Source: Halovenus rubra (GTDB lineage Archaea; Halobacteriota; Halobacteria; Halobacteriales; Haloarculaceae). From it: a stretch of DNA of 64,000 nt. The notes beneath the pieces were generated by a model. The model was given only the letters and a program-made list of their open reading frames with translations, did not search any database and was not told the origin of the DNA. This document shows, one piece after another, positions 8,190 through 52,792 of this stretch. The position numbers were made by a program, and so were the translations under genes. Each line of letters opens with the position of its first letter. Within the stretch, counting starts at the first letter, position 1. The DNA is taken from assembly GCF_026586665.1 (NCBI RefSeq), contig NZ_JAODIY010000010.1:186001-250000 (forward strand). Direction: 5' to 3'.

Positions 8190-9683
8190 TCAGTCATCGA
8201 TGTTCGGGCCGGAGTCAGTTTGCCGTTCGGAGTCAGGGACTGTTTTGGAGACGGTATCACCGACCACCTCGCTTTCATCGTCGTCGATGACGCCCTCGGT
8301 CCAGCGCCCGAGACGGAACCAAGCGGCCGCCATGACGAACGTTATCGACGCGCCGATAGCGTACGAGACCCAGATGCCGACGATGCCGATATCAAGCGCT
8401 CTGAACTCGATACCAAGAATAGGTATCGGGACAGTAAACGCAAACGCTAGTGCGAGCGCAACAGGGATTCGGAACACCCAGCGTGCGAGAAAAGAGAGTC
8501 CCATGGCGACTTTGGTCTGCCCAGCGCCACGGAACGCTCCCTGAATGACCATCGTTCCCCCGAAAAGGGCCCAGAATGGAGCGACGATGCGCAGAAACGT
8601 TCGGCCCTCAGCAACTGTGTCGGGATTGTCATCAAAAAGGCCAATAAGAAAATCGGGGAACAAGACACAGATACCGCCCGCAACGAACAGGAACACCATT
8701 GTCCCGGCGGTGGCGACCCACGTCACGGTGCTGGCACGGTCGGGCGTACCAGCGCCAAGATTCTGTCCAACGCCGGTAGACGTAGCCTGTCCAACAGCGC
8801 CAGCAACGGACCACGAAACAGACATCAGCCTGACACCGATACCGTAAGCGGCGACAGCAGCTGTGCCAAATGGGGTGACGAATGCAGCCATCGTAACCGA
8901 GGCGAAACTGCGTGCCCAACCATCGAGCGTTGCGGGATACCCGATACCGACGAGTTTCCGAAGAATCGCCAAATCAGGAACGAGGTCGCGCAGGTAGAGT
9001 TTTACGCCGAACCGACCGTCAAGTAAGATGGCGATACCCACAACAGTGGCGAACGCGCGGGAGATGAACGTTGCCCAAGCGGCACCGCTGGTTCCCATTG
9101 CGGGGAACGGACCCCAGCCGAGGATGAAAAAGGGGTCGATGAGTACGTTCAGACCCGCCGAAAGGAACACAAGCCACATCGCTGTCATCGTGTCGCCTGC
9201 ACCCTGCAGAGACGCGCGAAAGGCAAAAAACAGGAACGTGAAGGGCAAAACAAGGAAGATTACCTCGATGTACTGAAGTGCTGCATCGAAGACACCGTCT
9301 TTGGCCCCCATGAGAGTCAACAAATCGTGGCGGAATGTGTATCCAAGTGTCGCGAGTACCAGCGAGACACCAAGCGCAAGTAAGAGCGTCTGGGCGACGA
9401 TATGGTCTGCCTTCCGTCGGTTGTCAGCACCGACGTGTTGTGAGACAAGTGCGATAGTCGCCGCTGTCAGCCCCATTGCTGTCGAGACAAACATCCACGA
9501 CAGCGGAAACATCAGCGAAACACCGGCGACGGCATCAGAATTGAGGCGGCCTACCCAGAAGATATCCGCCAAATTGTAGGCGGTCTGAAGCAGGTTCCCT
9601 AGCACAAGAGGCAACGATAGTGCGAGAAGCTTCGGGGCAATCGCCCCTGTTGTCATATCCACTCCTTTACGATTTGTTGGCAC
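8190..9683 (-). CDS. MATE-family efflux transporter
   Basis: A 497-residue 12-helix membrane exporter, expected to move organic cations or toxins out in exchange for Na+ or H+. The two homologous halves begin near LSLPLVLGNLLQTAYNLADI and LVGIGYPATLDGWARSFASV. A GTG at 9683 gives PTNRKGVDMTTGAIAPKLL, which matches the family N-terminus better than the ATG at 9656. Two near-identical 26-bp repeats lie directly upstream. Confidence 0.88.
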   Translation of the reverse strand: MPTNRKGVDMTTGAIAPKLLALSLPLVLGNLLQTAYNLADIFWVGRLNSDAVAGVSLMFPLSWMFVSTAMGLTAATIALVSQHVGADNRRKADHIVAQTLLLALGVSLVLATLGYTFRHDLLTLMGAKDGVFDAALQYIEVIFLVLPFTFLFFAFRASLQGAGDTMTAMWLVFLSAGLNVLIDPFFILGWGPFPAMGTSGAAWATFISRAFATVVGIAILLDGRFGVKLYLRDLVPDLAILRKLVGIGYPATLDGWARSFASVTMAAFVTPFGTAAVAAYGIGVRLMSVSWSVAGAVGQATSTGVGQNLGAGTPDRASTVTWVATAGTMVFLFVAGGICVLFPDFLIGLFDDNPDTVAEGRTFLRIVAPFWALFGGTMVIQGAFRGAGQTKVAMGLSFLARWVFRIPVALALAFAFTVPIPILGIEFRALDIGIVGIWVSYAIGASITFVMAAAWFRLGRWTEGVIDDDESEVVGDTVSKTVPDSERQTDSGPNIDD

Positions 9684-9692
9684 TGTCTATCC

Positions 9693-9791
9693 GTTGTCGA
9701 GAAACAATATCAAGGCGACGATATGTCGCAACTCGCCTACCCGCTCGGGGAGTTTGAACCGATCTGTTGTCGAGAAGCAATATCACGGCGA
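9693..9791. repeat. Pair of imperfect 26-bp direct repeats upstream of the MATE gene
   Basis: Copies at 9693-9718 and 9766-9791 match at 24 of 26 bases; both begin GTTGTCGAGAA and end CGGCGA or AGGCGA. Each contains a TTGT-N6 inverted element (TTGTCGAGAAACAA in the first copy). The first copy ends 10 bp before the GTG of the MATE gene and covers the position of its core promoter. Repressor operators or a small local duplication are the likely explanations. Confidence 0.7.
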
Positions 9792-9813
9792 TACCTCTCG
9801 CTGTCGGATACAG

Positions 9814-10116
9814 CTATTCGTCCGTATTCGTACTGCCTCGCAGCTGCGAAATCCGTCCCTTGCTTTCCGAAGACTGGCTGTCTTCATCGTCTCCAATCGT
9901 GGGTATTCGGCCCCCAGTCTCGCCTTCCTTGACATCTTGAACCATGTTGTCAAGCTCATGTCGTTTCTCCCCGATAACTGCGCCGACAAGCGCGCCGGTC
10001 GCGGCACCTGTACTCGCGGCGTTTCGGCTCAGGATACCGCCGAGGAACCCACCGAGAGCAGCCCCGATAGCTGCGTACTGTGCTCGACTAAACGCTCGCT
10101 TGATTCGTTCTTTCAT
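9814..10116 (-). CDS. Glycine-zipper protein, unknown function
   Basis: A protein of 100 residues: MKERIKRAFSRAQ, then a glycine-zipper hydrophobic stretch (AAIGAALGGFLGGILSRNAA, TGAATGALVGAVIGEK) and a polar acidic tail. Glycine zippers of this sort insert in or associate with membranes. The ATG at 10116 was chosen over an upstream in-frame ATG because a TATA-like TTTTATT at 10138-10144 lies about 25 bp before it, as expected for a leaderless haloarchaeal transcript. No family recognised. Confidence 0.6.
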   Translation of the reverse strand: MKERIKRAFSRAQYAAIGAALGGFLGGILSRNAASTGAATGALVGAVIGEKRHELDNMVQDVKEGETGGRIPTIGDDEDSQSSESKGRISQLRGSTNTDE

Positions 10117-10221
10117 AGTTGAATACACGATGAGAGTGAATAAAAGAATTGTCACGATGTTCATACTGTGAGACAGAGAGAAATCACAACAGCAAAGAGC
10201 GTTCTCTCGTCAGCAATATAT

Positions 10222-12255
10222 GTGCCAACATACCCCGAGACTGAACGAGAGACAGTCACTGAGACCCTCCATGGAGAGAGTATCGAGGACCCCTATCGAT
10301 GGCTCGAAGACAACAATGGGCGCGTCAAGGAGTAGGAACAGCGACAGAACGAATTTACCGACACGCTCATCGAGACCGACCGTCGGGACTCGCTCGAACC
10401 GGCATTCGAAGAGCTTGGCTGGCGTGAAAACTACTTCCTGCCAACGGTCCGAGGAGACCGCTACTTTCAGCGCATCGAGCCAGCAGAGGCCGAACAGCCA
10501 CGGCTGACCGTCAGAGACAGCCCTGACGCCGACGCGCGGACGCTCGTCGACCCAACGTCACTCGATGAGACAACCTCGCTCCAGTGGTTCGAACCAAACT
10601 GGGAGAGTTCACTCGTCGTCTATGGCCTGATGGACGCTGGAACTGAGCAGTACGACCTTCAAGTGCTCGATGTCGAAACCGGTGACGTTGTTGAGGAAAT
10701 CGACGCTGTCGGTCGCTGTAACGGTGCGTCGTGGGACGCTAATGGATTCTATTACAGCGCGACCGGCGCTGCAACCGAAGGTGGCCAACTCGACAAAGAA
10801 CTTCGATACCACGAACTCAGCGGAGAGGACCGCCTCATCACTGCAGACTTCGACCCCGAGCGGTGGCCCGGTGTCCAGGTGGGGCCAGATTCGGGTGTTG
10901 TTCTCGTTACCGTCGGGGAACTCGGAACTGACAGCGACCTGTTTGTCGTTGTCGACGGCGAACTCGAACCGGTGCTCACCGATCTTGATGCGCCACTCAT
11001 CCCAACAATCCACAGTGGTACCGTCTACGTCCATACGACGCATGACGCACCGCGTGGACAGGTGTTTGCTCTCGATATATCTGACATTGCGGACGCATCC
11101 GGCATTGCGGATTTCGAGACGCTCATCCCAGAAGGCAGTGACGTGATTCAGCAGATTGCGCCTGTCGGCGACGGGCTTGCGATCCACTCGATTCGCGACG
11201 CATACTCGGTTGTCTCGCTGTACGACACCGATGGGACCAAGCGATATGAACTCTCTCTCCCGGAGTTCTCGGGGATACCAAGAGGTGGCATCGGAGCCAA
11301 CCGTGGGTCTAACGAGTTGTTCCTGTTCGTTCAGGGGCTTGACCAGCCCACAAGTATCGTCTACGCCAACACCGGAGCCAATGCAGGCCCCGACAACTGG
11401 ACTGTACTTCAGTCTCCAACACTCCCCGCAGAGCTTGACCCACAAGATGGCCTCGATTTGACCGTCGAACAACACTGGGTCGATTCGAGTGACGCCGCCA
11501 GTCTCCCAGTTTACGTGGTCCACCGGGCAGATATCGACCCCGACGGGACCGCGCCAACGATTCTTTCCGGGTACGGCGGGTTCCGAATACCAAATCTTCC
11601 AAGCCTCGACCCGTACCGGCTCCCGTTTCTCGCTGACGGTGGTGTCTTTGCTCTGGCGTGCCTGCGTGGTGGCTCAGAGTTCGGCGAGGAGTGGCACGAG
11701 GACGGCTCACGAGAGCACAAAGAGCACACATTTGACGACTTCGAAGCCGCCGCAGAGAAGCTCGTCGACGCCGGATACACAACACCAGACCGGCTCGCGG
11801 CCTGGGGAGGCAGCAACGGGGGACTCACCGTCGGCGCAGCTCTTACTCGTCGTCCAGAACTGTTCGGCGCTATGGTCTGTAATGTTCCCTTGCTCGATAT
11901 GCTTCGATTTCAGCGATTTCTGCTCGGCCAGGCATGGACCGGAGAGTACGGTACCCCAGAAAAAGAAGAGGAGTTCAATTGGCTCCAATCGTACTCACCG
12001 TACCATCACGTCACAGAACGGGAGTACCCGGCGACACTGTTCGCCACCGCGGCGGGCGATACACGAGTTCACCCCGCTCATGCACGCAAGATGACCGCTC
12101 GCGTCCAGCAGGCGACGACCAGCGATGACCCAATCTGCTATCACAGCGTCCAAGAGACAGGCCACGGAACGGGGACGCCAACCTCAGTAGCAATCGAGCA
12201 GGCCCTCGACAAGTGGAGCTTCATCTACGAGACACTCGATATCAACCGCGAGTAG
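10222..12255 (+). pseudogene. Prolyl oligopeptidase (S9A), interrupted by one in-frame TAG
   Basis: Starting at the GTG at 10222 one frame runs 678 codons and reads as a full prolyl oligopeptidase: YPETERETVTETLHGESIED PYRWLED, then a beta-propeller, then the alpha/beta-hydrolase domain. The catalytic triad is present: Ser531 (GGSNGG), Asp613 (GDTRVHP) and His648 (ETGHGTGTP). The only defect is TAG at 10333-10335, codon 38, in the conserved context RVKE-stop-EQRQNEF. Family members usually have Trp there (VKxWxxxQN), so a TGG to TAG change is the simplest explanation. An internal ATG at 10630 could give only a headless 541-residue product. Recent pseudogene, sequencing error or readthrough all remain possible. 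Confidence 0.85.
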
Positions 12256-37920: not shown

Positions 37921-38173
37921 CGCAGTCACGGGATATCTGACACTCTCTTCTTTCGTGTGGTTACTGCGCCGACAAACTGCTGTCGGTATTGCTTGCTATA
38001 GCGGCTGTAATCGTCGATATGGGATATTTCTCCGCAGGACAGTTGGCTATGTCAGCTCCTTCATGATATCTGTTACAGGATTTGAGGTGGCTCTCTGGAT
38101 AGCGCCACTGTACTGTTTTGTACTTACGCATTGGGCCGATAGATAGACGTGGTTTATTGCCGGAAGTGGTAGG

Positions 38174-38183
38174 TTATTTATAC
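38174..38183 (+). promoter_or_regulatory. TATA box of livJ
   Basis: TTATTTATAC lies 27-36 bp upstream of the livJ ATG at 38211, the expected spacing for a short-leader haloarchaeal transcript. Confidence 0.55.
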
Positions 38184-38210
38184 TATGCGCTCGGTATGTA
38201 TCAACACACC

Positions 38211-39572
38211 ATGAGTGACAAAATAGATAGACGCAAACTTCTCAAACTTCTCGGGGCATCAGGGGCCACTGCAGCACTTGCTGGCTGTTCCGGTGGCGAT
38301 GGCGATGATGGCGGTGATGGAGACAGTGACGGCGGTGATGGAGACAGTGATGGCGGCAGTGATGGTGGCAGTGATGGTGGCAGTGATGGTGGCAGTGATG
38401 GTGGCAGTGATGGCGGCAGTGATGGCGGTGATGGTGGTGGCGGTCGTGAGATTAGGTACGGTGTGTTGATGCCGGAAACTGGTGACCTCGGCTCACTTGG
38501 TGGACCTATCGGCGACGGTGCCAGACTCGTGGGCCGCCAACTGGAGGGGCAGACAGAGTTCACATTTGATGTCAAATCCGCCGACACGCAGACTGACCCA
38601 CAAGCAGGTATCAGCGAGGCCAATTCGCTGGTCGATGGGGGCTATCCGGCAGTGGTCGGCTCGGCATCATCGAACGTCAACCTGCAGGTGACACGCCAAT
38701 CGTTCATTCCGAACGAGGTTGTCGGTATCTCGCCGTCCTCAACGGCACCGTCAGTGAGCCAGCTCGACGACAATGATTACATCTTCAGAACGGCACCGTC
38801 GGATGCACTGCAGGGACCGGTCATCGCACAGGTTGCAGTTGAGGAGTTCGACGCCAGTACGGTTTCGACGATGTTCCTTAATGACAATTACGGGCAGGCC
38901 CTCGAAAGCGCCTTTGTCGATGCCTTCGAAAACGAGCAAGGTGGCGAGGTGCTCGAACAGGTGTCCTTCGAGCCTGAGCAGCCCTCGTACTCATCACAGC
39001 TCAATACCGCGATGAGTGCCGACCCTGACTTCTTGTGGATTGTCGGCTTCCCGCAGTCGGGTATCCAGCTGTTCCGTGACTACTACAACAGCTACAGCGA
39101 GGACTTCCCGATTATCGTCCCTGACGGACTTATCGACGATACGCTTCCCGGTGAAGTCGGTAACTCGATGAACAACGTCTGGGGAACCGCACCGGCAGCC
39201 GGTGGTCCCGGTGCAGACCGATTTGCCGAACTGTACCAAGAGGAGTGGGGACGTGAGCCCGGCGTCTTCAACGCTCACGCCTACGACGCCGCCGCGTGTG
39301 TTGTCCTCGCGAATGCACGTGCCGGCGAGAACGATGGCACTGCAATCCGGGACAACATGCGCAATGTTGCTAACCCACCGGGAACGGAAGTCACTGCGAG
39401 CAACCTCGCCGAGGGACTCGAGATGGCTGCCGCCGGCGACGAGATACAGTACACCGGTGCCTCATCGGCAGTCGACTTCAACGATACCGGTGACATGCAG
39501 GCAGTCTCCTACGATGTCCTCCGGTATATGGAGGGAGAGGCCCAAGTGCAGCGGACAATCGACTTCAGCTAA
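38211..39572 (+). CDS. livJ: Branched-chain amino-acid ABC transporter substrate-binding lipoprotein
   Basis: A 453-residue Tat-exported lipoprotein (DRRKLLKLLGASGATAALAG then the lipobox Cys). A Gly/Ser/Asp tether of about 50 residues follows, built from DNA repeats. The binding domain is of the LivJ/periplasmic type I family (IRYGVLMPETGDLGSLGGPI through YMEGEAQVQRTIDF). It faces the livFGMH genes, which encode the matching permeases and ATPases. A ligand of the Leu/Ile/Val class is likely; related proteins can also carry short-chain amides or urea. Confidence 0.9.
   Translation: MSDKIDRRKLLKLLGASGATAALAGCSGGDGDDGGDGDSDGGDGDSDGGSDGGSDGGSDGGSDGGSDGGSDGGDGGGGREIRYGVLMPETGDLGSLGGPIGDGARLVGRQLEGQTEFTFDVKSADTQTDPQAGISEANSLVDGGYPAVVGSASSNVNLQVTRQSFIPNEVVGISPSSTAPSVSQLDDNDYIFRTAPSDALQGPVIAQVAVEEFDASTVSTMFLNDNYGQALESAFVDAFENEQGGEVLEQVSFEPEQPSYSSQLNTAMSADPDFLWIVGFPQSGIQLFRDYYNSYSEDFPIIVPDGLIDDTLPGEVGNSMNNVWGTAPAAGGPGADRFAELYQEEWGREPGVFNAHAYDAAACVVLANARAGENDGTAIRDNMRNVANPPGTEVTASNLAEGLEMAAAGDEIQYTGASSAVDFNDTGDMQAVSYDVLRYMEGEAQVQRTIDFS
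38310..38426. repeat. Tandem repeats encoding the livJ lipoprotein tether
   Basis: Two 21-bp units (GGCGGTGATGGAGACAGTGA plus C or T) at 38310-38351 are followed by six 12-bp units (GGCAGTGATGGT or ...GGC) at 38355-38426. They encode GGDGDSD and GSDG repeats. All units are multiples of three, so copy-number change would alter tether length without breaking the frame. Confidence 0.9.
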
Positions 39573-39733: not shown

Positions 39734-40570
39734 TTATCCGCCGAGGAACTGCTGGCGGACTTCTTCGTCGGCGAGAAGTCGGTCACCGGTATCGACGTAG
39801 CCGTTTTGTCCCTGTGCGAGCACGTACCCTCGGTCACACCGTCGTAACGCCTCCTTGGCGTTTTGCTCGACCATCAGTATCGCTGTCCCGTCGTCGTTGA
39901 TGCGGTCGATGCGGTCAAACATCTCGTCGACAAGGTCCGGGGCGAGCCCGGCAGAAGGCTCGTCAAGCAACAGCAGGTCGGGGTCAAGCATAAGAGCCCG
40001 GCCCATCGCAACCATCTGTCGCTGCCCGCCGGACATCGAACCTGCGTTCTGTGATTTTCGGTCTTCGAGAATTGGGAACCGGTCATAGACATCCTGAAGC
40101 CGCTCTGGGGGAACCTCGTCAAGGATGTACGCACCCATCTCAAGGTTCTCTTGAACCGAGAGGTTCGGAAAGACGTTATCATTCTGTGGGACGTAACTGA
40201 TGCCCTTGTAGATAATGTCTTCGGGCCGAAGTCCATGAATATCTTCGCCGTCGAAGATGACCGTGCCGCCCATGTACGTCGTGAGGCCGAACACAGATTT
40301 CATTACCGTCGACTTGCCCGCCCCGTTGGGTCCGACAATTGTGACGTACTCACCGCCGCCGACATTGAGATCAACGTCTTCGAGAATCTGGAGGTCGCCG
40401 TACCCCGCATCAAGATCTCGTACTTCGAGAATCGACTCCTCGGGCGCGGCCGCAATTGGGTCCGTCTTTGCTGATACGTCTTCACCAGTGTCGGTTGTGG
40501 CCGTCTCGTTTGTATCTTCGATTGTCGACGCCGCTTCAGTCGGTGACTCGGTGGTATCCTGTTCGCTCAT
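39734..40570 (-). CDS. livF: Branched-chain amino-acid ABC transporter ATPase LivF
   Basis: A 278-residue ATPase. Walker A GPNGAGKST, signature SGGQRQMVAM, Walker B LLLLDEPSAGLAP; the C-terminal EALRRCDRGYVLAQGQ is typical of LivF. An acidic, Thr-rich N-terminal extension of about 45 residues is present. Last gene of the livHMGF operon; its start overlaps the end of livG by 4 nt. Confidence 0.93.
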   Translation of the reverse strand: MSEQDTTESPTEAASTIEDTNETATTDTGEDVSAKTDPIAAAPEESILEVRDLDAGYGDLQILEDVDLNVGGGEYVTIVGPNGAGKSTVMKSVFGLTTYMGGTVIFDGEDIHGLRPEDIIYKGISYVPQNDNVFPNLSVQENLEMGAYILDEVPPERLQDVYDRFPILEDRKSQNAGSMSGGQRQMVAMGRALMLDPDLLLLDEPSAGLAPDLVDEMFDRIDRINDDGTAILMVEQNAKEALRRCDRGYVLAQGQNGYVDTGDRLLADEEVRQQFLGG

Positions 40571-41388
40571 ATATCTTCACCCAGGTACGCTTCAATAACC
40601 TGATCGTTCGATCTGATATCTTCTGGGTCACCATCAGCGAGTAACTTCCCTTGGTGCATGACGAGCACTCGCTCACAGTTCTCCATAATGATGTCCATGT
40701 CATGCTCGACCAGCAAGAACGTATAGCCATCTTCACGGAGAGAATGAATCCGGTCGAGAAGTTTTTCTTCCAGCGTCGGGTTGACACCGGCCATCGGCTC
40801 GTCGAGCAACAGCATCTCTGGCTCGGTCATCATCGCTCGTGACATCTCAAGGAGTTTTTGTTGCCCGCCAGACAGGTTTCCAGCCTCCTCGTAAGCGAGA
40901 TGGTCAATTTCGAAGAATTCGAGTGTCTCCCAGACACGCTCGCGCACCTCGTATTCTTGCTCGACGACACCACTTCGTGCACCCGGCATAACAGAGCGCC
41001 ACAGTGTCTCGCCGCTCTGTGCTTTCGGTGCGAGCATCAAATTCTCAAGCACGGTCATCTCCGATAACGCACGCGCAATCTGGAACGTTCGGACCATGCC
41101 GCGGTTCGCAATCTGTTCGGGCCGCATTCCGGTAACCTTCTCGCCCTGGAAGTAAACCTCTCCACCTGTCGGATTGAGTGCACCGGTGATACAGTTGAAC
41201 GTCGTCGACTTGCCGGCACCGTTTGGCCCGATAAGTCCGGTAATCGTCCCACGTTGTACGTCGAAGCTTGTGTCGTCGACCGCGACGATACCGCCGAAAC
41301 GTTTTTCGAGGTTCTCCACCCGAAGCGGTGCATCCTGATCGACGGTGGTTGTCTCCGTATCTGTCGTTGTTTCTACAGTTTCACTCAT
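40567..41388 (-). CDS. livG: Branched-chain amino-acid ABC transporter ATPase LivG
   Basis: A 273-residue ATPase paired with LivF. Walker A GPNGAGKST, LivG hallmark GMVRTFQIARALSEMTVLEN, signature LSGGQQKLLEM, Walker B LLLDEPMAGVNP. The ATG at 41388 is chosen because it begins MSETVETTTDTETTT and overlaps the livM stop by 8 nt; a longer in-frame extension upstream lies inside livM. Confidence 0.93.
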   Translation of the reverse strand: MSETVETTTDTETTTVDQDAPLRVENLEKRFGGIVAVDDTSFDVQRGTITGLIGPNGAGKSTTFNCITGALNPTGGEVYFQGEKVTGMRPEQIANRGMVRTFQIARALSEMTVLENLMLAPKAQSGETLWRSVMPGARSGVVEQEYEVRERVWETLEFFEIDHLAYEEAGNLSGGQQKLLEMSRAMMTEPEMLLLDEPMAGVNPTLEEKLLDRIHSLREDGYTFLLVEHDMDIIMENCERVLVMHQGKLLADGDPEDIRSNDQVIEAYLGEDI

Positions 41389-42724
41389 CGTTGCCCTCCT
41401 GTTTGCCGAGGTTGACTGCAGCGGCGGTTTCGGTCCGGTCACCGAACATGCCGTTTGGCCGTTTCTGAATGATGACAATCAACACAACTCCGAGCAACAC
41501 GAACTGGAGTGGTGCGATGTTATCAATGGCGTACGCGAGGAACGGCTGGAACGAGAAGTCTGCCAGTGGCGCGATGGCCCCGTCGAAGGTACCGGGCGCA
41601 TTACCAAGGTTGAACCGTGCGCTGATAATCGCACCAACTTGGCGTGGCCCTTCAAACAGCAGCCCCACGAACAGAAGCGAGCCGACGACGCTGCCAGTGT
41701 TTGATCCCGACCCACCGATAATCAGTGCGATAAACGCGTAGAACGTGATGACCGGCCGGAAAGAGTTTGGATTCGCAAACCCTTGGCTCCCCTGCCAGAG
41801 AATGCCGGCAAGGCCCATCAACGCACAGCCAACCATGAACACCTTGATTTTGAACCGCCGGGTGTCCTTGCCAAGCGACTGGGCGACGAGTTCATCTTCA
41901 CGGATTGCCTTGAGTACTCGTCCAAACGGCGAGTAACCGATGCGCCGAACCAGCCAGTACACCCCTGCCATAACCAGCAGCATGATCAACGACCAAAGAA
42001 AGTCGCTGAGTATCGACGAGCTGACCAGTGTTACTTCTTCGCCGCCGATTTCAAACAGTAACAAGTCGATTCTACCGGGATCGATGACGAACAACTCGGC
42101 GAATGATTCGCCAATTGAGGTATCAAGGATGGAATCCGTTGGTCGTCCGGGCAAGTCCATGCCACTGCCGCCGCCGGTACCGAACCCGAACGTGTTGGTC
42201 GTCCATTTCGAGAGCGTCCGGGAGCCTGCAGCGAGCCGGATAATCTCGGAAAGACCGAGCGTGACAATCGCAAAGTAGTCCGAGCTCACCCGGAGTGCAG
42301 GAATCGCGGCAAGTAGCCCGACAAGTGCCGCAGCAATCATTCCCCCGAGAATGCCAATAGGGAGTGGCAACCCAAGTCCCTGTCCGGAAAGAGCATCCGG
42401 AGATGTGCTCAACATCCCCATCGTGTAGATGCCAACAGCCATGAATCCAGCAATACCGATGTTGAACATGCCGGTGTACCCCCAGTGGAGGTTCAGCGCC
42501 AGCGTGATTAGCGCGTACGCGGCAAAGAGGAACGTGATGGTCCGCCAAGCACCGAAAATCGAGTTGACGGTCCCCAACCCAAGCCCCTGTTCAAGCACAA
42601 TCAGTATCGCGAACAGTCCGTAAACAAATGCTACCGTTGACGCGATGAAACGACGGTCTGTTTTTTTGACCCAGCCAGAAATCCGTGCACGCGCGGTTGC
42701 CGAGCCGGTTTCACTGGCTGTCAT
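41381..42724 (-). CDS. livM: Branched-chain amino-acid ABC transporter permease LivM
   Basis: A 447-residue membrane protein with about ten helices. The family core is LTLALNLHWGYTGMFNIGIAG and the coupling helix region RVLKAIREDELVAQSLGKDT that contacts the ATPases. A long periplasmic/extracellular loop separates helices in the middle. Its start overlaps the livH stop by 4 nt. Confidence 0.92.
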   Translation of the reverse strand: MTASETGSATARARISGWVKKTDRRFIASTVAFVYGLFAILIVLEQGLGLGTVNSIFGAWRTITFLFAAYALITLALNLHWGYTGMFNIGIAGFMAVGIYTMGMLSTSPDALSGQGLGLPLPIGILGGMIAAALVGLLAAIPALRVSSDYFAIVTLGLSEIIRLAAGSRTLSKWTTNTFGFGTGGGSGMDLPGRPTDSILDTSIGESFAELFVIDPGRIDLLLFEIGGEEVTLVSSSILSDFLWSLIMLLVMAGVYWLVRRIGYSPFGRVLKAIREDELVAQSLGKDTRRFKIKVFMVGCALMGLAGILWQGSQGFANPNSFRPVITFYAFIALIIGGSGSNTGSVVGSLLFVGLLFEGPRQVGAIISARFNLGNAPGTFDGAIAPLADFSFQPFLAYAIDNIAPLQFVLLGVVLIVIIQKRPNGMFGDRTETAAAVNLGKQEGNDE

Positions 42725-43878
42725 GCAGTTGTCACCCCCCCGAAGATACCCTCTGGACGGTACAGTAGAACGAGAATCATGATGGCGAACGCGGCAGCAG
42801 CGTTAAAGTCCGAAGAGATCCAGATCAATGAGACCTCCTGAACCATACCGATGACGAGTCCGCCAGCAATTGCCCCGTAAATCGACCCGATACCACCGAG
42901 AATGACTCCCGCGAAGATGAAAAGCAGGAGGAACCAACCGACGTTGAAGTTCATCGTTCCACGCTCAAGGACGTACAGGAAGCCGGCGACGCCAGCGAGA
43001 CCGGCACCGAGAATCCACGTTGCACGGACGATCCGCTCTGTCGGGATACCGGTGACCAGTGCAAGGTCTTTGTTGTCGGCCATCGCGCGCATTGCTTTCC
43101 CTAGTTTCGTTCGTTGGAGCAACAGGTGCATCCCAATCATCAGTGCCAGCGAAACGACCAACAGCGTGAGCTGGTGGAGGTCAACCGACATGCCAGTCCC
43201 AAGGAAGTTCTTTTCTTGAACACCCTCGATTGCGGTCACACCACGTGTCTGTGGACCATATACGAACTGGATGAAAGAACGGAGTGCAAGCGCGACACCG
43301 ATAGAGGCAATAAGCAGTGAGATTCCCTCACGGTCCCGCATCGGTCGATAAACGAAGCGGTCGGCAAGCAACGCGACAGCGACCGTCACGACTGCCGAAA
43401 CGACGACACCAATGAGGATTGCCAGCGGTGATGCCACGATTGATGCCCCTATCTCGTTTGGATTCGGTCCTGTTCCCGAGCGTGCCAGCAACAGGTAGCC
43501 TGCGTCGCCAGCCCCCCAACCAGCGATTAACAGTGCAACGCCCCACCCGGTGAATGCCCCTGTGGTGAATAGGTCACCGTGTGAAAAGTTCGCGAAGTTG
43601 AGTATGCTATACGTCATTGAAAGACCGATACCTGCGAGACCAAAGATCAGACCGACAATCAACCCGGTCCGCAGCCGATCTATGAGTGTGTCCAGTGCAA
43701 TATCGCCGCCGAGTGTTCGACCACCGACTTCAAGCAGTTCGACCCCCGCCAAGCCGGCAATAAGGTCGATGATTAACGTTACGAACACACCGAGAGCGAG
43801 TAGTAGTAAGACCCGCCCGCGGATTGCATTTATCACTGGGTTCTCAGATTCCCCTGGAAGCCACTGAGAGCTTGCCAT
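42721..43878 (-). CDS. livH: Branched-chain amino-acid ABC transporter permease LivH
   Basis: A 385-residue membrane protein with about eight to nine helices. Signatures are GLIFGLAGIGLSMTYSILNF (with ANFSHGDLF) and KLGKAMRAMADNKDLALVTG (coupling region). First gene of the leftward livHMGF operon. The start is taken as the ATG at 43878 (MASSQWLPGESEN); in-frame codons continue upstream to 43938 but include AT-rich promoter-like sequence. Confidence 0.9.
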   Translation of the reverse strand: MASSQWLPGESENPVINAIRGRVLLLLALGVFVTLIIDLIAGLAGVELLEVGGRTLGGDIALDTLIDRLRTGLIVGLIFGLAGIGLSMTYSILNFANFSHGDLFTTGAFTGWGVALLIAGWGAGDAGYLLLARSGTGPNPNEIGASIVASPLAILIGVVVSAVVTVAVALLADRFVYRPMRDREGISLLIASIGVALALRSFIQFVYGPQTRGVTAIEGVQEKNFLGTGMSVDLHQLTLLVVSLALMIGMHLLLQRTKLGKAMRAMADNKDLALVTGIPTERIVRATWILGAGLAGVAGFLYVLERGTMNFNVGWFLLLFIFAGVILGGIGSIYGAIAGGLVIGMVQEVSLIWISSDFNAAAAFAIMILVLLYRPEGIFGGVTTA

Positions 43879-43891
43879 GCTGTTTGCTAAA

Positions 43892-43950
43892 TCATGTTCA
43901 TCCTGTAAATAGTTCACGTTGTTGAGTGAGTATATCATGTCTCATGTTCA
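43892..43950. promoter_or_regulatory. Divergent livH/transducer control region with TCATGTTCA repeats
   Basis: The 153-bp AT-rich region between livH (leftward) and the first transducer (rightward) contains TCATGTTCA at 43892-43900 and again at 43942-43950, exactly 50 bp apart. Such spacing (close to five helical turns) could suit a regulator acting on both promoters. No protein is assigned. Confidence 0.35.
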
Positions 43951-44031: not shown

Positions 44032-45861
44032 ATGGGTGAAAGTGCAGCAACGGACCCAGAAAGTCCAGAGGCAAGCGCGGATGCTAATATGTCTCAATCT
44101 GGGGCGCGGAGAATTGTTCCATCTGTAGTAGCTAGTAATCTCATAGTAAAGCTGGTTGTCGGGATCTTACTCATCGTGCTTTTGGCAGGGGGTATTGCGT
44201 TCTACTTCCAGAGTGGGATTGCTGACGAGCTCGATTCACAGGTCAAGACACAGGTCGAAGAGACCGCCGGCCTGCACTCGGATATTTATACAGCTTGGGA
44301 AGGCAATCGATTCGACGAGCTGAGATCAATTGCAGGTGAGGAGGTGCTCGACCAGAGCGCCGAACGCCCTCGGAGCGACCGACTCACACGGGCTCGAAAT
44401 AACCTGGATAGTTTCCAACAGTTGCATCTTGTCGATACCGAGAGTGGCGAGGTGATTGCAAGTTCTGCCGAGGAAGCAGTCGGTGAGAATATGTTCGAGA
44501 TGGTTGACGAGAGTTTCATCGGCGAATCAGGCGCGTTTACCACACCGTATCAGTACACATCGCTAACAGGAGAGACTGTCGTCGGCTTCGGACGACAGCG
44601 ACTTCTTGACGATACGCACGTGCTACTCGGCGAAGTGCCGGCTACGGGCGGCCCCAACTTCAGACAGACTATCGAGGGATCAAACACCGTTATTGCAAAC
44701 CAAGAGGGTGATGTTGTCTTCGGAGAGAGTGGCGTCGACCCGGCAGTCGTCGGGGAAGGATTAAGCATCACCGTCACACGGAACGATGGCGAAATTCATG
44801 CAAGTACGACGTTTGGCGAGCGCGGGCTTACCGTCGTCACGAGCAGTCCAGAGAGTGAAGCGTTCGCACTCAGGGATAGTGTTCTCCGGAGTTTCGTCAT
44901 CATGCTTGTGTTAGTGTTTGGCGTCTTGATTATCAGTACCGTCATCGGTGGCCGCTCAATCGCTAGCTCAATTACGAAACTCAACGACCGTGCAAAAGAG
45001 ATGGGAGAAGGAGATTTGTCTGTCGATCTTGAAACAAGTCGGAGAGACGAAATCGGCGAACTCTACGCCGGGTTCGCTAGCATGCGTGACTCACTCCAAG
45101 AACGCATCAGCGAAACAGAAGACGCACGTGACGAGGCCGAAACGGCCCGAAAAGAAGCAGAGGTCGCACGGGCAGAAGCCGAAGAGCTAGCGTCGTACCT
45201 CCAAGAGCGCACTGAGGAGTATTCCGAAATTATGCGACAGGTGGGAATGGGTGATATGACCCAGCGGATGACTCCCGACGGCGAAGAGGAGTCGATGGAT
45301 ACCATCGCAACGGAGTTCAACGACATGATTGAGGAGTTAGAGAAGACAACAGGCCAACTCAAAAGCTACGTCAATGAGGTTGAGGAGGCTGGCGCTGAAG
45401 TCGAGCAAAGTGCCCAGACTGTGCGCGACGCCAGCGAACAGGTGGCGGACTCGATTCAGAAGATCTCCGACGATGCCTACAATCAAAAAGAACGTCTGCA
45501 GGCAGTCTCGGAAACAATGGATAAGGTGACGACAGAACTCGAATCTATGGCAACCGTCGAAGGTGTCGACATCCAAGAGCCACTCGCAAATCTCCAAACG
45601 ATGGCGAGCAATATCAACGAGATTGCGGAGTTGAGTGAGGAGACGATGGCCGAAGCTGAAGATGTCGCCGGTGCTGCTGAGGAACAGGCCGCAGAGCTTA
45701 ACGAAGTCTCCAAACGGGCAAACGACCTCCAGCAGTACGCACAGCCACTCCGAGACATCCTTGGGCGCTTCGAAACCGAAGCCGAACACGAGTTTGTCTT
45801 CTCGGTTGGGCCGACCGGCGGCGCTCAGAGTCCAACCTCACGCTCACCGGACGAAGAATAA
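44032..45861 (+). CDS. Transducer-like membrane protein lacking the CheA-binding tip
   Basis: A 609-residue protein. A membrane helix at about 38-58, an extracellular sensor domain (60-280), a second helix (about 286-306), HAMP (SITKLNDRAKEMGEGDLSVD) and a long coiled coil are nearly the same as in the next gene. But the conserved transducer hairpin tip is missing: the two antiparallel helices join through ATVEGVDIQEPL near residue 508 and the protein ends with a short return helix (QPLRDILGRFETEAEHEF) plus a disordered tail. It thus lacks the site that contacts CheA and CheW. It might sense the same ligand without signalling directly, or modulate its paralogue in mixed clusters. Confidence 0.88.
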   Translation: MGESAATDPESPEASADANMSQSGARRIVPSVVASNLIVKLVVGILLIVLLAGGIAFYFQSGIADELDSQVKTQVEETAGLHSDIYTAWEGNRFDELRSIAGEEVLDQSAERPRSDRLTRARNNLDSFQQLHLVDTESGEVIASSAEEAVGENMFEMVDESFIGESGAFTTPYQYTSLTGETVVGFGRQRLLDDTHVLLGEVPATGGPNFRQTIEGSNTVIANQEGDVVFGESGVDPAVVGEGLSITVTRNDGEIHASTTFGERGLTVVTSSPESEAFALRDSVLRSFVIMLVLVFGVLIISTVIGGRSIASSITKLNDRAKEMGEGDLSVDLETSRRDEIGELYAGFASMRDSLQERISETEDARDEAETARKEAEVARAEAEELASYLQERTEEYSEIMRQVGMGDMTQRMTPDGEEESMDTIATEFNDMIEELEKTTGQLKSYVNEVEEAGAEVEQSAQTVRDASEQVADSIQKISDDAYNQKERLQAVSETMDKVTTELESMATVEGVDIQEPLANLQTMASNINEIAELSEETMAEAEDVAGAAEEQAAELNEVSKRANDLQQYAQPLRDILGRFETEAEHEFVFSVGPTGGAQSPTSRSPDEE

Positions 45862-46035
45862 CACAGTCGTCTGGGTTTGTCCCAGCTTTTTTACGGGTAT
45901 TTGTTTTCGGATGGTCCGCTCAGCCACATCCAGCGCGGTGAAACGGCCGAGAACGACCTCAATTGTTCGCTGGAAATATCGATTATGAATATAGTACGCC
46001 CAAATTAAAGTTTGGGGGTAAATATCATACAACAC

Positions 46036-48333
46036 ATGACCCAGAGTGAATCGGCCAAGGGGCAAACTGACGAGAAGACAACCGATAGTATCACGCAACG
46101 GTTGGACGGAGCGAAAAGTGTTGTTCCGGCTGTGATAACAGACAATTTGTTGGTGAAGTTCATTGTCGGTATTCTTCTTATCGTCCTTCTTATCGGCGGA
46201 ATCGCCGTATATTTCGAGAGTGGAATTGAGAGCGAACTCGATACACAAGTGACAACACAGGTCGAGGAAACCGCCGGTCTGCATTCGGATATCTACACGG
46301 CCTGGGAGGGTAACCGCTTTGATGATTTGCAGTCTATCGCGGGCGATGAAGGATTAGATATCAATAACGAACGGGTACAAAGTGACCTACTGGTACGGGG
46401 ACGCGACAATCTCGATAGCTTCGAGCAGCTACATCTTGTCGATACCGAAAGTGGTGACGTTCTTGCAAGTTCTGCTGAGGAGGCAGTCGGCGAGAATATG
46501 TTCGACCGAATCAACGAATCTCTTGTTAGTGAGTCACGCGAGTTTACCACACCATACCAGTATACGTCGCCGACAGGGGAGACTGTTGTTGGCTTTGGAC
46601 GACAGCGACTCCTTAACAATACACATCTTCTTGTCGGAGAGGTGCCCGCCGACGGCGGCCCAAAGTTTAGACAAACTATCGAAGGGTCAAACACCATCAT
46701 TGCAAACCAAGATGGCGATGTTATCTTCGGAGAAGAAAGTGTCAACCCATCAGTCGTCACGGACAGCACACCTGCCGACTCGGATTCGAACGTCACAGTC
46801 ACACAGATGGGTGGAGAAATACATGCAAGCAACACGCTCGGTGAGACAGAGCTAACGGTTGTCACGAGCAGTCCAGAAAGCGAAGCGTTTGCGCTCAGAG
46901 ACAGTGTCATCCAGAGTTTCATTATCATGCTCGTGCTGGCTTTTGGAGTGCTAGTTGTCGTCGGCGTCGTCGGCGGTCGGTCTATTGCCACCTCAATTAC
47001 AGAGCTTAACGACCGTGCAAAGGAAATGGAGAAAGGCAACCTATCGGTTGACCTCGAAACGAGCCGGACCGACGAAATTGGCGAACTCTACGACGGGTTC
47101 GCCAGCATGCGTGACTCGCTCCAGAGCCGGATTACGGAAGCTGAAGACGCCCTATCAGAAGCAACAAGTGCAAAAGAACAAGCCGAAGATGCCCGCGAAG
47201 AGGCCGCTACTGCCCGCGAGGAGGCAGAGACAATTAACGACCAAATCGAGTCCTCGGCAGACAGGTACAGCAACGTGATGCGGCAAGCCGCAAACGGTGA
47301 CCTCACAGTCCGGATGAATACTGACAAGGACAACGAGGCGATGGCAGCGATTGCAACCGATTTCAACGCGATGCTCGACGAGTTCGAGACAACCATCGAT
47401 GAGATAACGACCTTCGCAGATGAGGTGGAAACGGCGAGCGAAGGCGTCACCACCTCGAGCGAGGAGATTCGTATCGCCAGCGAGGATGTGAGTCAAGCGG
47501 TTCAGGAGATATCAAACGGGGCCATGGAGCAAAACGACGCCCTCCAACAAGTGACAAACGAGATGAACGATTTGTCCGCGACCGTCGAGGAAATTGCGGC
47601 GTCCTCAAACGAGGTCGCATCAGTCGCCGAGCAAACTGCCCAAACAGGTCGCGACGGTCGTGAGGCCGCTCAGGCCGCAATCAATGGGATGAATACCGTC
47701 CAGACCGAATCGAAGCGAGCAGTTGAGGAGATAGAACAGCTCGAAGAGCAGGTCCAACAAGTCGACGACCTGATTGCCAGGATGGCCGACATTGCCGACC
47801 AGACGAGCATCCTCGCACTGAACGCAAACATCGAGGCAGCCAGAGCTGGCGGCGGCACAGGGAACAGTGGTGATGGCTTTGCGGTGGTCGCAAACGAAGT
47901 CAAGGTGCTCTCAGAGGATGCTAAGGCGGCCGCGGACGAAGTCGAGAACCGCCTCGAAGCAATCCGGGGACAGACACAAGAGTCGGCACAAGCCGTTCAG
48001 GCAGCGAGCCAGAACGTCGACGAGCACACGCAGTCGGTTGAGGACGCTGCAGAGGCATTCTCGGAGGTTGCTAACTATGCCACCGAGACCAACAACGGGA
48101 TTCAGGAAATTTCAGCAGCGACAGACCAGCAGGCAACGACGACCGAACGAGTCGTGGCGATGGTCAACGAGGTCGCTTCGATTGCAAACAGCACGACGAC
48201 ACAGGCAGAAAGTACCGCGGCGACCGCAGAGGAACAGTCCGCATCGATGAGTGAAGTTTCCGAGAGCGTCTCTGACCTTGCCGAGCAAGCCACACAGCTA
48301 TCTGAGACGCTCGACCGATTCGAGACTACCTGA
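46036..48333 (+). CDS. Methyl-accepting chemotaxis transducer (Htr)
   Basis: A 765-residue transducer. Membrane helix at about 40-60, extracellular sensor domain, second helix near 295-318, HAMP (SITELNDRAKEMEKGNLSVD), and a full cytoplasmic four-helix-bundle subunit. The signalling tip (MADIADQTSILALNANIEAA, about residues 583-602) for CheA/CheW is intact, and Gln/Glu pairs suitable for methylation flank it. The sensor domain is close to that of the preceding gene, so the two arose by duplication. The ATG at 46036 is used. Position beside the liv genes suggests, but does not show, amino-acid sensing. Confidence 0.94.
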   Translation: MTQSESAKGQTDEKTTDSITQRLDGAKSVVPAVITDNLLVKFIVGILLIVLLIGGIAVYFESGIESELDTQVTTQVEETAGLHSDIYTAWEGNRFDDLQSIAGDEGLDINNERVQSDLLVRGRDNLDSFEQLHLVDTESGDVLASSAEEAVGENMFDRINESLVSESREFTTPYQYTSPTGETVVGFGRQRLLNNTHLLVGEVPADGGPKFRQTIEGSNTIIANQDGDVIFGEESVNPSVVTDSTPADSDSNVTVTQMGGEIHASNTLGETELTVVTSSPESEAFALRDSVIQSFIIMLVLAFGVLVVVGVVGGRSIATSITELNDRAKEMEKGNLSVDLETSRTDEIGELYDGFASMRDSLQSRITEAEDALSEATSAKEQAEDAREEAATAREEAETINDQIESSADRYSNVMRQAANGDLTVRMNTDKDNEAMAAIATDFNAMLDEFETTIDEITTFADEVETASEGVTTSSEEIRIASEDVSQAVQEISNGAMEQNDALQQVTNEMNDLSATVEEIAASSNEVASVAEQTAQTGRDGREAAQAAINGMNTVQTESKRAVEEIEQLEEQVQQVDDLIARMADIADQTSILALNANIEAARAGGGTGNSGDGFAVVANEVKVLSEDAKAAADEVENRLEAIRGQTQESAQAVQAASQNVDEHTQSVEDAAEAFSEVANYATETNNGIQEISAATDQQATTTERVVAMVNEVASIANSTTTQAESTAATAEEQSASMSEVSESVSDLAEQATQLSETLDRFETT

Positions 48334-52186: not shown

Positions 52187-52792
52187 ATGAGTTCGTTGAT
52201 GATCGACATCCGAAAACTTGGGCTGTTTAATAAGATGGCAAAAGAGGGGGGTAATACGGTTGCAGACCACCTGAGCCAGATGACGGGAATGGAAACCGAG
52301 ATGGAGATTACAAAGATTAATTTCATCGATATCCCGGATATCCGTGCCCACGTCGGTGACCAAAAACAGATTGGTATCAGCATCGAAATGGTTGAACGAC
52401 CGTACGGACATATCCTCTTCCTGTTCAACGCACCGGACGCCAAGAAGCTTGCTCACGGGATGATGGGTGACATGGCGGGTGCAGAGGAGTCCGAAGATGG
52501 GTTCACAGACATGGAGCGGTCGGCTGTTCAAGAGATTGGCAACATCATGACCAGCGGGTTCATCGACGGCTGGGCAAACGTGTTAAATACGACAATTGAT
52601 ATGTCGACGCCGACGTTCACATTCGGTCCCGGGAGCAGTATGGTCAACGACCTCGTCGGCGACCGTGAAGACGAGATGGCACTCATGTTCGACTCGCGGG
52701 TGCAGGCACTCGAAGAAGATATCAATGTCACCGTCTACACATTCCCTGAGCTACAGGAACTTGTCAGTTTGATGCAAGAGATAGAAGTCTAA
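52187..52792 (+). CDS. cheC: Chemotaxis protein CheC
   Basis: A 201-residue CheY-P phosphatase-family protein. The second active-site helix fits the CheC consensus S/D-x3-E-x2-N-x22-P exactly (SAVQEIGN with Pro 23 residues later). The first site keeps Glu and Asn (KEGGN) but is otherwise degenerate, so probably one site works. A TATATA promoter at about 52148-52155 lies upstream. It is the second taxis element in this region after the transducer pair at 44-48 kb. Confidence 0.92.
   Translation: MSSLMIDIRKLGLFNKMAKEGGNTVADHLSQMTGMETEMEITKINFIDIPDIRAHVGDQKQIGISIEMVERPYGHILFLFNAPDAKKLAHGMMGDMAGAEESEDGFTDMERSAVQEIGNIMTSGFIDGWANVLNTTIDMSTPTFTFGPGSSMVNDLVGDREDEMALMFDSRVQALEEDINVTVYTFPELQELVSLMQEIEV

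Follow-up and report, generated by a model that had tools for sequence, protein, structure and literature searches.

A chimeric tipless transducer of Halovenus rubra and its receptor family: a chemoreceptor scaffold that may signal to a partner other than CheA

In the usual view, a chemoreceptor signals through CheA and CheW, which bind at the tip of its cytoplasmic hairpin, and a pair of genes in Halovenus rubra raises the question of what such a receptor does once the tip is gone. The genes lie in tandem on the forward strand of a 64,000-nucleotide stretch (contig NZ_JAODIY010000010.1, positions 186,001 to 250,000), referred to here as the window. The upstream gene encodes a short transducer of 609 residues, P0001 (44032–45861; open reading frame (ORF), Pfam, and AlphaFold2), and the downstream gene a full-length transducer of 765 residues, P0002 (from an ATG at 46036, or a TTG at 46012, to 48333; ORF and Pfam); an earlier note on this DNA had drawn both ORFs at these positions. 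The Pfam model for the signaling domain of methyl-accepting chemotaxis proteins (MCPs), MCPsignal (PF00015; cut-off 34.6 bits), gives 115.7 bits with P0002 but 10.2 bits with P0001, in which HAMP (56.3 bits) is the sole Pfam domain over its cut-off. By its sequence, P0002 is an ordinary methyl-accepting receptor, and it carries the 20-residue tip MADIADQTSILALNANIEAA (residues 583–602; 47782–47841), whose CheA/CheW-binding function we take from established knowledge of MCPs. The note had likewise given this tip to P0002 and none to P0001, and both halves of that claim hold. An MCP without the tip makes no core-complex contact with CheA or CheW. The explanation toward which we lean, cautiously and taken as a whole, is that P0001 is a chimeric member of a family of tipless receptors, rewired to a partner other than CheA.

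P0001 and P0002 are closely alike only over the front of the molecule. Their identity is 164/220 (74%) in the extracellular sensor (residues 61–280 of P0001; 44212–44871), 66% in the second transmembrane (TM) helix, and 44/53 (83%) in HAMP1 (residues 308–360; 44953–45111), but 17/40 in the linker, 20/45 in the HAMP2 region (residues 401–445; 45232–45366), and 20/61 and 19/63 in the two hairpin arms. Thus, where sensor, HAMP, and proximal coiled coil had been described as shared almost residue for residue, the description stands for the sensor and HAMP1—its example, TQVEETAGLHSDIYTAWEGN, does occur in both proteins, from residues 73 and 74—but not for the proximal coiled coil (linker 42%, HAMP2 44%, arms 30–32%). 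Comparison with C34 (locus L031), a tipless paralogue encoded elsewhere in the genome, gives 61/220 in the sensor and 28/53 in HAMP1 on the one hand, and 31/40 in the linker, 43/45 (95%) in HAMP2, and 52/61 and 53/63 in the arms on the other, with 86% identity over the back half of P0001 (residues 370–609). Among 319 informative sites, defined as positions matching only one of P0002 and C34, P0001 is P0002-like at 153/167 up to residue 364 and at 6/152 from residue 366 on; the joint at residues 364–366 (45121–45129), P0002-like before and tipless-family-like after, is far beyond chance (chi-square 244.6, as against a maximum of 15.0 among 1000 permutations). On these sequence comparisons, P0001 arose not by a local deletion but as a chimera, a P0002-type front having been fused at a single sharp joint to a ready-made tipless-family back, and the loss of the distal hairpin and tip is ancestral to the whole family rather than an event in P0001, in which the earlier note had placed it.

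These data bear directly on the possibility that P0001 is a dying duplicate, that is, a copy of P0002 that lost its tip by an in-place deletion. Such an origin is very improbable. In-place deletion is rejected because the joint is sharp and the back half, rather than coming from P0002, matches another gene at 86%; moreover, the ratio of nonsynonymous to synonymous substitution rates (dN/dS) between P0001 and C34 is 0.083 over the last 210 codons, no internal stop is present, and the module is conserved across Haloarculaceae. What speaks for it is the syntenic locus in the two sister species H. aranensis (G003) and H. salina (G001), where the transporter genes discussed below are directly divergent from a long receptor, with no short gene between them. 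Because both sisters have only the long receptor at the locus, P0001 is not fixed in the genus. In a tree of the sensor, P0001 falls outside P0002 and its sister orthologues with support of only 88/88, so that P0001 may equally well have been lost in the sisters or gained here. A second chimera in the same genome, C44, has a front nearest to long receptors (36%) and a back 60% identical to short ones; fronts have, by this evidence, been exchanged within the tipless family.

The family was delimited with a profile, A1, made from an alignment of 22 C-terminal halves, of which P0001 itself is one row. In a search of 243 genomes of the order, the short matches scored 255–346 bits and all fell within Haloarculaceae, and no other match exceeded 130 bits, with long receptors reaching at most 130; a later search of Haloarculaceae with the same profile took the short matches down to 224 bits. 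P0001 scores 338.8 bits, above the gap separating short from long, and has the AAEEQAAEL signature and HEF[VY]F-type tail described below. With a match at E 1e-40 or better as the threshold for a carrier, the tipless module is present in 60/116 Haloarculaceae genomes at least 85% complete and in 69/146 at least 50% complete, the named carriers including Halovenus, Haloarcula, Halomicroarcula, Halorhabdus, Halomicrobium, Halosimplex, and Halapricum. In one genome, G018, two short receptors stand in tandem (L044:7470–9413 and 9572–11551). The genome of the window has four tipless genes and 17 MCPsignal matches, one of these a fragment with a stop; a broken transducer (G000:C5:237552–237878; MCPsignal 90 bits, a 121-residue frame with one stop) lies about 7 kb from the short receptor C5.

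In a tree of the module without the HAMP1 part (49 short and 28 long rows), all 49 short rows were found on one side of a single branch (support 100/99; 200/200 bootstraps), and the module has, on sequence grounds, a single origin. The choice of rows favors this clean split: besides the HAMP1 part, the tree omits five near-copies among the short forms, eight long-receptor loci, which are mostly long branches and include four from the group beside C44, and three further long rows excluded by a length limit. A tree running from HAMP1 to the arm (54 short and 39 long rows) does not give one short group but requires 2 changes and places 8 long rows beside C44, because fronts have been exchanged and that of C44 is long-like. 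Usable short pairs gave dN/dS values of 0.015 to 0.239 for the same back part, with 0.222 for P0001 and P0002, and the module of draft genome G304 gave 0.077 with its nearest relative; the pairs of C34 with H. aranensis and with draft G016 yield no value owing to saturation of synonymous sites. None of 14 genes tested has an internal stop. Judged from these sequences, the module is under purifying selection, and decay of P0001 is ruled out by its dN/dS and intact ORF. The short form is therefore neither decaying nor unique, in line with the earlier note.

The shortening itself is orderly. From landmark to landmark, the hairpin spans 82 residues in P0001 versus 250 in P0002, a difference of 168 residues or exactly 24 heptads. 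With the glycine loop of P0002 as the center of the tip, following the position of the tip in MCPs, and with the AlphaFold2 turn for P0001, the two arms are shortened by 83 and 85 residues, 12 heptads apiece, and the hydrophobic a/d heptad phase is equal in both proteins for each hairpin helix; the symmetric loss that had been proposed is thus borne out by the heptad alignment. The AlphaFold2 model of P0001 (38 sequences; mean predicted local distance difference test score (pLDDT) 77, predicted template modeling score 0.46) has a pLDDT of about 82–85 over most of the hairpin and a disordered tail; together with the register, it resolves the end of HAMP2 and the shortened hairpin into a helix (residues 417–510), a turn (511–514), and a second helix (515–578; 45280–45765 in all). 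The best PDB profile matches of the short module are MCPs, and P0001 has the HAMP and antiparallel helical hairpin of an MCP (PF00015), but not the MCPsignal match with its tip nor the methylation consensus. Of the 54 short forms, 49 have a landmark spacing of 81–83 residues and four a shorter one; in the remaining form, the spacing could not be measured. These 54 are the 56 matches to the pattern minus L064, a long receptor, and L078, which has an odd C-terminus; the pattern did not catch L105, L112, L115, and L116, which stand outside the 54.

Archaeal methylation sites follow the consensus [ASTG]2-x2-[EQ]2-x2-[ASTG]2. This pattern is found in the hairpin of 39/40 long but only 1/54 short receptors; P0002 has three instances, among them SATVEEIAAS in the N-helix (residues 514–523; 47575–47604) and AATAEEQSAS in the C-helix (residues 728–737; 48217–48246), and P0001 has none. 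At the site of the C-helix motif of long receptors, P0001 carries AAEEQAAEL (residues 548–556; 45673–45699), which occurs in 51/54 short and 0/40 long receptors. Since the tipless hairpin is also without the methylation consensus, the kinase tip and the adaptation motif have gone together. The C-helix of P0001 ends in GRFET, as had been noted, but the protein does not end there: it continues for 27 more residues into a conserved tail (EHEFVFSVGP...) that had gone unmentioned (residues 584–609, EAEHEFVFSVGPTGG...; 45781–45858). A tail of the HEF[VY]F type was observed in 51/54 short and 0/40 long receptors. It is not a feature common to long receptors, of which 6/40 show [FY]x[FY] within 40 residues of the C-terminus and none the HEF[VY]F form; nor is it explained as a CheR-binding pentapeptide, from which it differs and which, as far as the accessible text of PMC7390727 goes, is absent from Halobacteriales receptors. 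Compared with canonical haloarchaeal MCPs (Htr; PF00015), a tipless receptor thus has the same TM-sensor-TM-HAMP-HAMP-antiparallel hairpin order and the same heptad phase, but is 24 heptads shorter, lacks tip and methylation consensus, and bears the HEF[VY]F tail.

What the family senses is suggested by the neighbors of its members; the module is combined with many inputs, which include extracellular sensors of differing kinds as well as the separately encoded proteins below. A solute-binding-protein gene lies directly upstream on the same strand, at most 20 bp away or overlapping, in 15/49 named short loci (L081, L085, L087, L090–L094, L097, L100, L103, L106, L113, L115, and L116); the binding proteins are Pfam-confirmed in L091, L081, and L106 and assigned by sequence clusters in the others, with L115 and L116 resting on sequence likeness alone. 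Outside these 49, a Pfam-confirmed SBP_bac_1 gene and a short receptor gene overlap by 4 bases (L156:12197–15537). Soluble tipless modules of 261–311 residues follow stand-alone HNOB genes (95–102 bits) in G286, G289, and G290, with a gene overlap of 8 bp in G286 and G289. The H-NOX (HNOB) loci are L112:7274–8585 in Haloarcula rara and L154:5748–7059, L155:5487–6798, and L153:5384–7119 in two relatives, where L154 (G286) and L112 look like the same locus; the soluble modules of L154 and L155 have lost the HEF[VY]F tail. Bacterial H-NOX proteins are mostly partnered with kinases, cyclases, or MCPs. The arrangement here is alike in that a stand-alone heme-NO-binding protein is encoded directly before a signaling protein, and different in the nature of that second protein, a soluble tipless transducer module; the two form a possible signaling pair for nitric oxide (NO) or O2.

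For P0001 itself, Foldseek grouped the AlphaFold2 model of the sensor with the dCache-type ligand-binding domains of amino-acid receptors (Mlp24, CtaA, and PctA). Adjoining P0001 and divergent from it on the reverse strand are branched-chain-type ATP-binding cassette (ABC) transporter genes (39734–43938), which we take from their sequences to encode two ATPases and two permeases. A LIV-type solute-binding protein (38118–39572, forward strand; Peripla_BP_6, 118 bits) is encoded near these genes but outside any operon with P0001, has a relative of 88.8% identity in the syntenic locus L052, and is a candidate ligand carrier for the sensor common to P0001 and P0002. As far as the accessible text of PMC3579733 goes, BasT of Halobacterium salinarum senses Leu, Ile, Val, Met, and Cys, and BasT and CosT, and with them BasB and CosB, were copurified with the CheA/CheW1 core; the likeness lies in binding-protein-assisted sensing by a haloarchaeal transducer, and the difference in that tipless receptors have the same kind of input without the CheA/CheW1 output. 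By analogy with BasB-BasT, the ligand of P0001 is probably either what the adjacent branched-chain amino-acid-type uptake system transports or its binding protein in the loaded state. The ligand would move the sensor, the two HAMPs would relay the signal to the shortened four-helix bundle of a putative dimer, and bundle and tail would offer a surface, switched by the signal, to some cytoplasmic protein that is neither CheA nor CheW. A P0002-type sensor would then feed two outputs here, taxis via P0002 and a second via P0001, whose information on nutrients probably goes elsewhere than to the swimming machinery.

With respect to the chemotaxis (Che) system, two drafts, G016 and G304, have no MCPsignal match over cut-off, no CheW, and no archaellin, and in both an intact short gene is present. 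Because nine less complete carrier drafts (60–82%) each show at least one MCP, incompleteness alone is unlikely to have caused these absences, and the tipless family is read as persisting without need for Che, though it may have a role in taxis elsewhere. Several observations weigh against a Che-independent output. In the 116 Haloarculaceae genomes, CheW was found in 58/60 carriers versus 33/56 non-carriers (and in 53/53 carriers among the 96 genomes of at least 90% completeness and no more than 5% contamination), and the short form is absent from 23/25 genomes without CheW; this co-occurrence may reflect shared ancestry or else a role in taxis. The two carriers without Che are themselves drafts (G016 88% and G304 89% complete), and the G016 receptor, its module intact, is 57% identical to that of H. 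aranensis versus 73–90% for five neighboring genes, a faster divergence that makes relaxed constraint after Che loss possible. Furthermore, three Halovenus drafts (G002, G008, and G017; 77–79%) have neither MCP nor short form. Finally, no partner was found: no neighbor is common to all members, which rules out a shared conserved neighbor in that role.

The 58/60 figure makes a taxis attenuator a serious rival, although a doubtful one. According to this proposal, a tipless receptor shares its ligand or binding protein with a full receptor and weakens the chemotactic response, as is proposed for HtrM, through competition either for the ligand complex or for factors of the Che system. HtrM of Haloarcula marismortui, the partner of the sensory rhodopsin SRM, was proposed as a taxis modulator, and coexpression of this tipless one-HAMP protein with SRM in H. 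salinarum lowers phototaxis through SRI and SRII (accessible text of PMC6450946); in the window, moreover, P0001 and the full receptor next to it have a common sensor. On the other hand, intact copies occur in the two drafts devoid of Che and archaellin; the methylation consensus is missing in 53/54 short forms, which are therefore no obvious sink for CheR/CheB; three of the four short forms in the genome have a similar front in no long receptor (best 25–40% identity among 40 long receptors); and the soluble members coupled to H-NOX have no extracellular ligand in common with a receptor. In architecture, too, the family is set apart by the same text's description of HtrM, which has one HAMP and two TM helices and works with a rhodopsin, whereas the family combines two HAMPs and an extracellular sensor with a shortened hairpin and a conserved tail. 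P0001 itself, with a second HAMP, a hairpin, and a sensor like dCache, departs from the single HAMP, missing extracellular sensor, and rhodopsin partner of the HtrM type. The family may nevertheless work similarly to HtrM, and the decoy role suggested by the earlier note survives in this HtrM-like form. No tipless haloarchaeal transducer besides HtrM was found in the open PMC literature; HVO_1357 and HVO_2248 were considered and, on the accessible text of PMC7824242, are not related to the family.

The note had also suggested a heterodimer partner: the alike fronts would let P0001 and P0002 pair, giving one-tip receptors that signal weakly or differently. Such pairing, which we consider improbable, fits the tandem genes, the identities of sensor, TM2, and HAMP1 (74%, 66%, and 83%), and the equal heptad phase of the hairpins. 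However, HAMP2 and the arms, through which the proteins would pair over most of their length, are only 30–44% identical, and the missing counterparts for three of four short forms weaken the idea further. Nor can pairing be the general role of the family, since no long receptor was seen beside other tipless members in the neighborhoods examined. Of the three roles suggested earlier, a sensor for another output fits best, given the intact copies in Che-less drafts and the H-NOX and binding-protein partners.

Among the recurrent neighbors of short receptors are solute-binding proteins, genes that we take from their sequences to serve sugar catabolism, and, in Haloarcula, a 140-residue coiled-coil protein without a Pfam match. 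The latter (140–157 residues; no Pfam model over cut-off) is a candidate partner; seven Haloarcula loci (L091:8648–9073, L103:8673–9146, and also L090, L092–L094, and L097) encode it 47–72 bp 3′ of the short receptor gene. In the window, a small protein with an N-terminal hydrophobic stretch is encoded 3′ of P0002 (48573–49103; 54–56% identity in both sister loci); it presumably resembles an archaeal pilin, and the gene beyond it on the other strand is presumably RtcB-like. A CheC-like protein (52199–52792; 57.6 bits with NCBIfam CheC_Thtogales, whose cut-off is 250) lies 3.9 kb downstream of the transducers and is 95–96% conserved in both syntenic loci.

A rewired P0001 would have consequences beyond this locus. 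No description of the tipless family was found in the open PMC literature; subscription papers were outside the scope, so that absence from print is not established. Annotation based on models of the MCP tip misses the family: Pfam gives only HAMP over cut-off for P0001, and P0001, C34, and the L091 receptor fall short of the cut-off of every NCBIfam model. In a wider and more tentative view, to which we give somewhat less credence than to the explanation of P0001, the Haloarculaceae module, made up of HAMP, hairpin, and tail and devoid of tip and methylation motifs, would be a general Che-independent signaling device, shuffled onto nutrient sensors, binding-protein receptors, and H-NOX, with its own cytoplasmic effector, and P0001 would be a fusion providing one nutrient sensor with a second, non-taxis output. 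Cultured Haloarcula and Halomicrobium species carry members, so that the partner can be fished for directly, and the pair in the window, one sensor with two outputs, would amount to a natural domain-swap experiment. Overall, if this explanation is true, the chemoreceptor scaffold can be rewired to a new output.

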